Position numbers and translations under genes: made by a program
Notes under the pieces: generated by a model
What the model was told of the DNA's origin: nothing
The model's input: only the letters and a program-made list of their open reading frames with translations
Databases searched by the model: none
Source of the DNA: Desulfosudis oleivorans
Lineage (GTDB): Bacteria; Desulfobacterota; Desulfobacteria; Desulfobacterales; SURF-7
NCBI GenBank assembly: GCA_020723325.1
Contig: DYJD01000005.1
Location: 124,001 to 188,000, forward strand
DNA: 64,000 nucleotides
Reading direction: 5' to 3'
Part shown: one piece after another, positions 58,118 to 61,576 of the stretch
How the letters are laid out: each line of letters opens with the position of its first letter
How positions within the stretch are numbered: the stretch's first letter is position 1

Positions 58118-59209
58118 ATGGTAGACAAGAACAAGAAGCCTTTTAAGAAGGACAATCCTGAAATGGTGGAAGCTTTTGAGCAGATTCTGAAGGCCCCGGA
58201 GGCAAACTCGGAGCTGACCCAAAACGCCATCGGTGTGGATATCGGCACATCCAAGACCGTTTTTGCAATGAACGGCAAAGGCAACGGCCACAAGGATTAT
58301 TTTTCCCAATTAAATGCCTTTATTGCGGTTCCCTATTCCCGCTTCACGGAAAACATTCTGAAACAAAACAAAATTCATCATTATAAACTAGCGGATTCTT
58401 TGATCGTTTATGGCGACGGGGCCGAGGTTTTTGCCAACATGTTGAACACTGAAACAAGACGGCCCATGCGCAACGGCCTGCTGAACGCCAAGGAAGCCAA
58501 TGCCATTGAAATCATGAAAGGCATTTTAAATGACATGATTCCGTCAGCCCCCTTTCCCAACACCCCCCTGTGTTTCTCCATCCCGGGGGTGCCCAAGGAT
58601 GCGGCCACGGATATCATCTATCATGAGGCCATTCTGAAGCGCCATCTGGATGAGAAAGGCTTTAAATCCCGCAGCATCAACGAAGGCATGGCCATCATTT
58701 TTTCAGAACTTGAAAGGGAAAACTTCACGGGCTTCGGCGTGAGCTGCGGCGGCGGCATGTGCAACGTTTGCCTTTCCTATCTTTCCATTCCCCACATTAC
58801 CTTCAGCATCACCAAAGGTGGCGATCATATCGATGACGCCGTGGCCTCGGTTACCAATGAGGTGAATACCCGCATCCGGGATATCAAAGAAAACCAGCTT
58901 GATCTTCTTGCCAATCCGGATAATGAAATTGAAGATGCTCTGCAGATTTACTATGATGACCTGATCCGCACCCTCATCCGGACCATGAAGGAAAGCATTG
59001 AACAAACGTCGAAAATTCCCAAGGTGGATGCCCCCATCCCCATTGTTCTCAGCGGCGGCACGGCCAAACCCAACGGATTTAAGGAACGTTTTGAAAATTG
59101 TCTCAAGGAGGTCAATTTCCCGCTGGAAATCAGTGAGGTCAGGCTGGCCAAAGATCCGCTGCGAGCCACGGCCAATGGCGCCCTGATCGCCGCCATGTTT
59201 GAAGGCTGA
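58118..59209 (+). CDS. Actin-like/Hsp70-like (ASKHA) ATPase of unknown role
   Basis: 363 residues from ATG 58118 behind GAGGAGG. After 35 polar residues the actin-fold motifs appear in order: phosphate 1 IGVDIGTSKTVFA (about residue 38), phosphate 2 GFGVSCGGGMCNVCL (about 207) and adenosine PIVLSGGTAKPNGFKE (about 310). It is close in length to MreB, ParM and MamK but not obviously one of them, and no peptide-binding domain of DnaK is present. It could form filaments or act as a switch. The next genes encode a membrane-anchored peptidoglycan amidase and an AMIN-domain protein, so a cell-wall function is a reasonable guess. Confidence 0.85.
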   Translation: MVDKNKKPFKKDNPEMVEAFEQILKAPEANSELTQNAIGVDIGTSKTVFAMNGKGNGHKDYFSQLNAFIAVPYSRFTENILKQNKIHHYKLADSLIVYGDGAEVFANMLNTETRRPMRNGLLNAKEANAIEIMKGILNDMIPSAPFPNTPLCFSIPGVPKDAATDIIYHEAILKRHLDEKGFKSRSINEGMAIIFSELERENFTGFGVSCGGGMCNVCLSYLSIPHITFSITKGGDHIDDAVASVTNEVNTRIRDIKENQLDLLANPDNEIEDALQIYYDDLIRTLIRTMKESIEQTSKIPKVDAPIPIVLSGGTAKPNGFKERFENCLKEVNFPLEISEVRLAKDPLRATANGALIAAMFEG

Positions 59210-59267
59210 GAATACCAGTGTTTCAGGCGTGAACCCATTCTCAGCGCCCATGGGCCTTAGGGCCCAT
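59205..59267 (+). other. Two intercistronic hairpins
   Basis: GCTGAGAAT (59205-59213, overlapping the stop codon) pairs with ATTCTCAGC (59237-59245). ATGGGCC (59250-59256) pairs with GGCCCAT (59261-59267). No T-run follows, so read-through into the amidase gene is possible. They may set mRNA stability or partial termination between the two genes. Confidence 0.5.
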
Positions 59268-59316
59268 CTGGGATAACCTTGCAGCAGATGGGAATTAATA
59301 GGGATTTGAGGAAGTC

Positions 59317-60684
59317 ATGGCCGAACTTTTCGAGCCCGAAAAGCTGCCGCCGAAATCCTACCGGCTGCGAATCGAAAAACTGGCGGAACAAATCACCGAT
59401 CCGGTACAGAAACTGAAATTTTTAAACAAGGCCCTTGCGGATTACAACCGGGAAAAAGACCAACAAATTGAATTTGTTGAATTGCCCATGGGCAACGGCC
59501 GCCGTCGCACTTTTTTCATGGTAATTTTGGGCTTGGCTGCCCTTGCGGGTGGCGTAGGGGCCTTTGTGGCATTTTCCCAGGGAAAGATAAAGCTTACTAT
59601 TGCCCGGCATTTTCAAACCAGGACCGAACAGATGGTCTATCACCCCATGGCCGACACTACAATTGAAACCGCTGCGATCGAGCCGTTGCCTGAGAAGGGC
59701 CCTGAAGTTCATCAGCCGGAGACGGCTGTATTTCCTGAATATCCGGATACACTGGTTTGGATGATCGAAAAAACAAACGAAAGCGAATACTACAGCAACC
59801 GCTTACGGATTTTTACGAGCCAGACAATTGAAAACATTCCCAGAAACTACCAGCAGATTCCCCTTGCCGCCACCGACCCGCCCCAAACCCCGGGGATGAC
59901 CGACAAGGTGGCAGGCATACTTTTTCATGCCTCGGAAAGCGACATTTACGCCTTTCAGCCGGAAATGACCCAATCCATCAAGGAATACAGCCGCCTGTTG
60001 ATCCGCTATATACGCGAGAAAAAAGCCTACCATTATTTCATTGACCGCTTCGGCCAGGTTTATCGGCTCGTGCGTGAAGATCATGCGGCTTTTCATGCCG
60101 GGAATTCCATCTGGACCGACACCGAGTCCATTTATCTTGACCTGAATCATGCCTTTATCGGGATTTGTTTTGAGGGCAAGGATTTCAAGAACAATCACCG
60201 CCGCAAGGGCCGAACCAATGGAAACGGGAATTCCACCCACATCGTCCCCATGGACAAATCTTCCATCAGTGAAACCCAGTTGCGCTCCGGCAAGGAACTG
60301 ACCGACTGGCTGCGGGTAAAATATGGAATTCCCCAAGGAAATTGCGTGCCCCATTGTCTGGTGTCGGTGAATCCCTATGACCTGCTGATCGGTCATCATC
60401 TGGACTTGTCTTATGACTTTCCCTTTGATATGTTCGGACTGAGCAATAAATATCAGGAACGGATTCCCGCCATAACCGAATTCGGTTTTTCATATAACAA
60501 TTATTTTACCGAAATCATGAAGGGACGTATCTGGCCGGGTATAGCCCTTTCTGAAGAAGACCTGAAAAAGCGCGCGGATGAACGCAAAATGCCCCTCAAG
60601 GAGTATCGCCGACTTCTGAACAATCAGTTTAAAAAACTATTCGAACAGCAAAAAGGCAGGAACCACACCAAAATCGAATCGTGA
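59317..60684 (+). CDS. Membrane-anchored N-acetylmuramoyl-L-alanine amidase-like protein
   Basis: 455 residues from ATG 59317 behind GAGGAAG. A cytoplasmic N-terminus of about 63 residues precedes one membrane helix (FFMVILGLAALAGGVGAFVA), leaving a large periplasmic part. From about residue 205 it has an Amidase_2/PGRP fold: AGILFHASESD (first zinc His), AYHYFIDRFGQVYRLV, AFHAGNSIW, HAFIGICFEGKD and LLIGHHLDLSYDFPFDMFG (second zinc His). It probably cuts the amide between MurNAc and L-Ala. The cytoplasmic tail could contact the actin-like ATPase encoded upstream. The AMIN-domain protein follows 40 bases later. Confidence 0.86.
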   Translation: MAELFEPEKLPPKSYRLRIEKLAEQITDPVQKLKFLNKALADYNREKDQQIEFVELPMGNGRRRTFFMVILGLAALAGGVGAFVAFSQGKIKLTIARHFQTRTEQMVYHPMADTTIETAAIEPLPEKGPEVHQPETAVFPEYPDTLVWMIEKTNESEYYSNRLRIFTSQTIENIPRNYQQIPLAATDPPQTPGMTDKVAGILFHASESDIYAFQPEMTQSIKEYSRLLIRYIREKKAYHYFIDRFGQVYRLVREDHAAFHAGNSIWTDTESIYLDLNHAFIGICFEGKDFKNNHRRKGRTNGNGNSTHIVPMDKSSISETQLRSGKELTDWLRVKYGIPQGNCVPHCLVSVNPYDLLIGHHLDLSYDFPFDMFGLSNKYQERIPAITEFGFSYNNYFTEIMKGRIWPGIALSEEDLKKRADERKMPLKEYRRLLNNQFKKLFEQQKGRNHTKIES

Positions 60685-60724
60685 TCAGGCCCTTGAATCA
60701 CTACCAACCCATGGAGCCGCTGTG

Positions 60725-61576
60725 ATGAATACTCAAAAAATAAATTGTCCGAAATGCCGGAGCGAAAAAACCGCACCCATACCTATGAATGCCCTGCGCC
60801 GGATTACGGGCTATGTGTATCCCCGCAAGTCCTATCTATGCCTGGATTGCCGAGCGCATTTCAGCCGTTTTGCAAATCCCTTCCAAAGCCGTTTCTCCAA
60901 GTTCGGCGCAGGTGCCGTGGTTGCAACCGTCCTTTTATGCCTTGCCCTTCTGATTCTATGGAAAGGCCGGCACGGATCGGTTCAGGACAATGCCCCGGCG
61001 ATGAAGATCAGCGAGCCCCAGGCAGGATCCCCGCGGATGTCCATTCCCAAAATGCCTCCCCCTGAAACCCAAGATACGGCCGCAGCCTCCCGGAGTGAAA
61101 CGGATACGTCATCTGCGGCGGCCGCCGCCACTGCCGCGCCACCCCCGGAACAAGCACCGCCGGAGCAGGCAAAAACCGCGAAAGATGAAAAAGTACAAGG
61201 GGCTTCCACTTCTCCGGCACCCGCAGCTTCTTTGACTCCCATGTCCGCAAACCAATTGAGAAAGCTTTTTGATGTCACCATCAATCCCGCCAACGGCCTG
61301 GCCGGTATTCAGATCCAGGCCGACGGCCCCATTCAAGATTATCGCTCCTTCATGTTGACCGATCCACACCGCCTGGTCATCGACCTTGCCGGCCGCTGGG
61401 AAAAGCCGCGTGCTTACAGCATTGAAACCGGCAATCAAGTGGTTACAAAAATCCGGCTCTGGAAATATGATAACAAGCTGCGCATCGTGGGGGATTTGCA
61501 GGCCGATCAAAAAATCACCGCGGTCTTTCAAACAACCGCCGACGGCCTGGTAGCTCGGTTGGAATCAGCCCCTTAA
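60725..61576 (+). CDS. Zinc-ribbon/TM/AMIN-domain protein
   Basis: 283 residues from ATG 60725; an in-frame GTG at 60722 shares the GGAG site. The order is unusual. A cytoplasmic zinc ribbon comes first (CPKC at 8-11, CLDC at about 38-41), then one membrane helix (AGAVVATVLLCLALLILW). A low-complexity Pro/Ala/Gln linker of about 100 residues follows, then a C-terminal AMIN domain (LAGIQIQADGPIQDYRSFML, then RLVIDLAGRWEK and VTKIRLWKYDNKLRIVGDL). AMIN domains bind peptidoglycan and localise amidases and pilus secretins. Directly after an amidase gene, it may position or regulate that enzyme, with the ribbon as an inner signal module. Confidence 0.85.
   Translation: MNTQKINCPKCRSEKTAPIPMNALRRITGYVYPRKSYLCLDCRAHFSRFANPFQSRFSKFGAGAVVATVLLCLALLILWKGRHGSVQDNAPAMKISEPQAGSPRMSIPKMPPPETQDTAAASRSETDTSSAAAAATAAPPPEQAPPEQAKTAKDEKVQGASTSPAPAASLTPMSANQLRKLFDVTINPANGLAGIQIQADGPIQDYRSFMLTDPHRLVIDLAGRWEKPRAYSIETGNQVVTKIRLWKYDNKLRIVGDLQADQKITAVFQTTADGLVARLESAP

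Follow-up and report, generated by a model that had tools for sequence, protein, structure and literature searches.

A bacterial volactin gene paired with a membrane-tethered amidase gene, and its possible part in local cutting of the cell wall

The window analyzed here, i.e., a 64,000-nucleotide stretch of a Desulfosudis oleivorans assembly (GCA_020723325.1, contig DYJD01000005.1, positions 124,001 to 188,000; G000:C64:124001-188000 in our own numbering), raises the question of whether an actin-fold protein inside the cell is linked to an enzyme that cuts the wall outside it. Three consecutive genes, termed act (positions 58118..59209), ami (59317..60684), and amin (60722..61576), all lie on the plus strand, with gaps of 107 nt between act and ami and 37 nt between ami and amin, and constitute an apparent operon. 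The original prediction described their products as an actin-fold protein, an amidase, and a zinc ribbon-transmembrane (TM)-AMIN protein, and the open reading frames (ORFs), with domain matches above the respective cutoffs, agree with this succession. The source genome is 7.2 Mb in size, and its close relatives by sequence are metagenome-assembled genomes (MAGs) of Desulfobacterales, e.g., Desulfosudis and Desulfobacterium.

The act-ami pair is a real conserved module. The relatives scan retained the best 80 of 200 relatives with two sequence patterns, and the tree calculated for volactins, the actin family to which act is assigned below (102 volactins and outgroups; quick search without bootstrap), is therefore a sample. 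One clade of 44 members from Desulfobacterales and Acidobacteriota (Shimodaira-Hasegawa-like approximate likelihood ratio test [SH-aLRT] = 97) has an ami gene for every member; ami adjoins act in 39 of them and is encoded elsewhere in the genome, unlinked, in the remaining 5. Of the other 56 bacterial rows in the tree, none has ami beside act. A volactin-like match was found in 24 of 194 Desulfobacterales genomes, and ami is present in all 9 of those with a volactin of at least 60% identity and in none of the other 15. Among 199 Acidobacteriota genomes, 7 carry a volactin, 6 a strong amidase, and 5 both; act adjoins ami in 5 of the 6 amidase genomes, and the sixth amidase sits at a contig end. 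The gene order in Acidobacteriota is mostly flipped (ami-act), and the pair is still kept. Hypergeometric P values of 1e-15 (Desulfobacterales) and 5e-8 (Acidobacteriota) are only nominal because the genomes were treated as independent; the recurrence of the adjacency in two phyla nevertheless indicates more than chance. The distance matrices of the two proteins correlate with r = 0.94 over 29 pairs, and with r = 0.81 and 0.95 within the groups, values that none of 5,000 permutations reached in either group. The original prediction had staked itself on co-occurrence of the three genes in other genomes, which was found for act and ami (9/9 versus 0/15 in Desulfobacterales, and 44/44 in the clade) and, for the third gene, only within the window's own family. 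Two Acidobacteriota loci (L119 and L120) carry two tandem volactin genes beside the amidase, a possible two-protein filament. An apparent act-ami fusion (L167) was rejected, as a stop codon separates the two ORFs; a long frame of the same kind (L124; 681 residues) is not claimed as a fusion.

The act protein (363 residues, without a TM segment) matches the Pfam family Volactin (PF25216) over positions 2 to 321 of the 321-position profile (E = 1.6e-77, 261.6 bits, cutoff = 35), as do all 26 of its aligned bacterial homologues, and is 37% identical to homologues from the haloarchaea Haloarcula and Natrinema over 89% of the protein. Its AlphaFold2 model (predicted local distance difference test [pLDDT] = 87, predicted template modeling score [pTM] = 0.85) takes the actin fold, and the nearest solved folds found with Foldseek are those of MamK (Z-score = 28.6), BeeR (27.8), and MreB (25.9). 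The cutoffs of the MreB (PF06723; 24.3 bits versus 27) and MamK (NF040964; 36.5 bits versus 400) families are not reached, and the Pfam PilM model gave no match to the window protein at E values up to 1. A separate, true MreB (498 bits) with an mreC-like gene next to it is encoded in the same genome. We accordingly assign act to the bacterial volactins, not to MreB, by family matches; the actin fold and the cytoplasmic location proposed for it stand, and what had been an anonymous ATPase receives a family. The genome also encodes a second, divergent MreB-like protein beside a histidine kinase (L189; G000:C101:70739-71692).

The phosphate-1 motif GVDIGTSK (residues 39 to 46; positions 58232..58255) and the adenosine motif SGGTAKPNG (residues 312 to 320; 59051..59077) are both present in act. 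Gly39, Asp41, and Gly43 of the former are invariant across the 26 homologues, as are Gly313 and Gly314 of the latter, with Gly320 nearly so. The usual phosphate-2 aspartate, on the other hand, is replaced by Ser209 (58742..58744) within the sequence GxxSxGGGMxN in all 26 aligned bacterial volactins, and a serine occupies this position also in the Natrinema volactin (L099); it looks like a family signature that presumably gives these proteins an active site unusual for an actin. The family is named for the cell-shape actin of Haloferax volcanii, which forms dynamic filaments, is bound to the membrane via the filament tips, and affects cell shape (PMC10869688). One Desulfobacterales volactin (L084) clusters with both haloarchaeal proteins (SH-aLRT = 99), which hints at interdomain transfer.

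The ami protein (455 residues) is a single-pass membrane N-acetylmuramoyl-L-alanine amidase that matches Amidase_2 (E = 1.8e-15, 57.9 bits, cutoff = 26), as do all 26 of its homologues. Hydropathy places the TM helix at residues 64 to 88 (59506..59580), so the cytoplasmic tail of 63 residues given in the original prediction is exact; the charges flanking the helix favor an N-in orientation in 21 of 26 homologues and are balanced in the window protein. The periplasmic amidase domain (residues 144 to 400; 59746..60516) is closest in fold to AmpD (Foldseek E = 2.6e-6), and AmiD and T7 lysozyme were also retrieved. His204, His346, and Asp363 are invariant across the 26 amidases and align, in hidden Markov model and MAFFT sequence alignments, with the zinc-ligand positions of Escherichia coli AmiD and AmpD. 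Asp363 is preceded by a 7-residue insertion relative to these enzymes, and its placement as the third ligand comes from MAFFT with E. coli AmiD and AmpD, the Pfam and PDB profile alignments having stopped short of it. The catalytic Glu116 and Lys162 of AmpD are not kept in the ami family, in which they are replaced by Cys or Ala and by His361, respectively; the window protein has Cys at the Glu position (GICFEG), as does the solved amidase 7f5i (GVCFEG), and His361 lies two residues before the ligand aspartate. The conserved zinc triad suggests that ami is likely to be enzymatically active on the wall. N-terminal to the membrane helix, residues 9 to 51 (59341..59469) are modeled as a helical hairpin (helices at residues 13 to 23 and 29 to 51; pLDDT of about 92 over residues 11 to 40), the mean pairwise identity of which is 0.31, versus 0.12 to 0.17 in the flanking spacer, TM helix, and linker. 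This hairpin is a candidate docking domain for act.

The third protein, amin (284 residues; start at GTG 60722 or ATG 60725), has a single TM helix (residues 58 to 84) and a periplasmic AMIN domain (residues 184 to 276; 61271..61549) that matches PF11741 (E = 5.2e-9, 36.6 bits, cutoff = 20.5). Two CxxC pairs at residues 9 to 12 and 40 to 43 (CPKC...CLDC; 60746..60850) precede the helix and are likely to form a cytoplasmic zinc ribbon; since this segment reaches no Pfam cutoff, the ribbon in the original prediction rests on the two pairs, while the AMIN domain and the helix are clear. An AMIN protein follows ami, at position +2, in six loci, all within the window's own family and nowhere else found; the ribbon occurs in two of them (the window and L067) and is absent from the four others, and the related loci L066, L069, and L071 have no AMIN gene. 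In seven Acidobacteriota loci, a zinc ribbon-TM-SPOR protein precedes ami-act and stands in for the third gene, so that the third protein carries AMIN in the window's family and SPOR in these Acidobacteriota. The third gene is thus a lineage-specific accessory. Denuded wall produced by amidases is described as the target of AMIN, SPOR, and LysM domains (PMC5285504), and SPOR is reported to bind amidase-processed peptidoglycan (PMC7822825). A divergent histidine kinase gene lies upstream of the module, and downstream lies a gene for a methyl-accepting chemotaxis protein, which did not adjoin the module in the relatives examined. Promoter-like sites in a promoter and terminator scan were no commoner than in shuffled sequences, and the scan was therefore not used.

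Two independent links by gene neighborhood connect bacterial volactins with wall enzymes: the amidase pairs with one clade, and a class A penicillin-binding protein (PBP) adjoins sister volactins. Outside the amidase clade, the gene after act encodes a receiver-like protein, which matches response regulators by profile (E = 9e-8) and either stands alone or is fused to a class A PBP that carries a transglycosylase and a transpeptidase domain; this suggests that it is an adaptor between the volactin and a wall synthase. This CheY-fold protein is found alone, often with a ParA/MinD ATPase (L072-L077, L079, L096, L153, and L165), or at the N terminus of the class A PBP (L074, L080-L083, and L147). 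In the Desulfobulbales loci (L086-L090 and L130-L174), the volactin gene has a near-invariant neighbor at position -1, on the opposite strand, that encodes an HrpA-like helicase. A gene for a zinc ribbon-TM-pentapeptide-repeat protein is often found at +1, and a class A PBP gene usually follows two or three genes further on. The haloarchaeal volactin genes examined had no neighboring amidase or PBP-type wall enzyme.

A possible mechanism can be drawn from these features. The act protein would polymerize in the cytoplasm, or switch with its nucleotide, and form filaments or patches at the membrane by analogy with the Haloferax volactin. Docking of the cytoplasmic hairpin would allow act to gather or position ami, and cutting of stem peptides would be confined to, or activated at, the sites where the filament meets the membrane. 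The ribbon protein, with AMIN here and SPOR in some Acidobacteriota, may bind to processed wall on its periplasmic side and to the machinery on its cytoplasmic side, thereby holding the complex at its working site and marking cut wall. The purpose may be cell shape, division, or local thinning of the wall. Comparative genomics supports the coupling of act and ami well, and we regard it as highly probable that the two cooperate in some way; direct positioning or control of ami by act is slightly favored. The original idea of an internal actin coupled to local wall cutting therefore gains strong comparative support for act and ami, although not as a fixed set of three genes. Several points weigh against the proposed mechanism. 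ATP turnover may differ from that of MreB because the phosphate-2 aspartate is a serine family-wide, the filaments cited above were observed in an archaeon, which lacks peptidoglycan, and the third gene is not conserved. Congruent act and ami trees are expected from vertical co-inheritance as well, and the genomes are mostly MAGs, with related genomes giving nonindependent counts.

The most serious competitor, which we consider somewhat unlikely, is that act organizes a position on the envelope, as do MamK, Mad28, and Bbp, and that ami is a coregulated wall enzyme that makes room without touching it. The genes of one process often share an operon without contact between their products, and MamK is the closest solved fold to act; on the other hand, catalysis gives no reason for the cytoplasmic hairpin of ami to be conserved, and five genomes retain both genes despite their being unlinked. 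It is improbable, in our view, that the genes form an additional module for division or elongation, with act replacing or assisting MreB or FtsA and ami serving as a divisome amidase. AMIN and SPOR do target septal wall in other systems (PMC5285504 and PMC7822825), but the genome has its own MreB with the mreC-like gene beside it, and act-ami occurs in no more than 9 of the 194 Desulfobacterales genomes, which argues against a core division function.

A phage-derived or defense cassette, composed of a partition-like actin and an endolysin, is very improbable. Weak PHROG matches to a partition protein and to endolysins point in this direction, as do divergent volactins in two huge uncultured phage records (31 to 33% identity; LR745208.1, positions 337417-338403, and LR756511.1, 548798-549796; records of 485 kb and 595 kb). 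This origin was rejected, as ami has no match among 50,697 phage records and PADLOC returned nothing for act or ami; its single match (17.7 bits) covers the TM helix and low-complexity linker of amin. That act and ami diverged together across two phyla speaks against it as well. We give equally little credence to a module for type IV pili or gliding, with a PilM-like actin and either a PilQ-like AMIN protein or a GltJ-like ribbon protein. AMIN occurs also in PilQ, which gave a weak PDB match to amin, and the GltJ model scored 22 bits, far under its 450-bit cutoff; both resemblances were rejected. All 26 volactins match Volactin, and one of them matches PilM weakly, whereas the window act does not match it. 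No pilus or gliding genes were recognized among the recurrent neighbors, most of which carried no annotation.

Direct control of ami by act thus remains the preferred reading, and it would tie an archaeal cell-shape actin family to bacteria with peptidoglycan. If an actin is indeed evolutionarily tied to an amidase, wall cutting, too, may be steerable by a filament, and act together with the amidase hairpin provides a defined, testable pair for probing volactin function. In the open-licence PubMed Central literature, neither bacterial volactins nor an actin-amidase cluster was found described, in line with the original view that the combination is undescribed. Tentatively, and with somewhat less than even confidence in all parts jointly, we propose an undescribed system in which a volactin directly controls a wall hydrolase through a docking hairpin, with a ZnR-TM-AMIN/SPOR protein (ZnR, zinc ribbon) as a sensor of cut wall, and in which bacterial volactins form a wall-remodeling family whose sister branches work with a receiver-domain class A PBP.

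Among known systems, Bbp, MamK, and Mad28 resemble act as extra actins of Desulfobacterota. Bbp of giant bacteria lies between MamK and MreB, in an operon with hypothetical and Kelch genes, and an amidase is unmentioned in its description (PMC10580974). This published description is what sets act apart from Bbp, while the MamK family score separates it from MamK. Volactin of H. volcanii (VolA, HVO_2015; PMC10869688) shares with act the Pfam family and the signature GxxSxGxGM(C/T)N. It differs in belonging to an archaeon without peptidoglycan and in its described role, the rod-to-disk shape change; moreover, the haloarchaeal genes examined have no amidase nearby. Control of a wall amidase from inside the cell and targeting by AMIN recall the FtsEX-EnvC-AmiA/B system and the AMIN amidase AmiC. 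AmiC and AmiA/B belong to the Amidase_3 type, are soluble, and become active through LytM proteins, whereas ami is a membrane-tethered Amidase_2 enzyme with AMIN on a separate protein. The MreB-RodZ-MreC elongasome likewise joins a cytoplasmic actin-fold protein to wall enzymes through membrane proteins; act, however, falls below the MreB cutoff, coexists with a separate MreB, and has a hydrolase rather than a synthase as its partner. The bacterial actins known to act on the wall (MreB) guide synthesis. Actin-directed wall remodeling is known, and what would be new here is a hydrolase in the place of the synthase.

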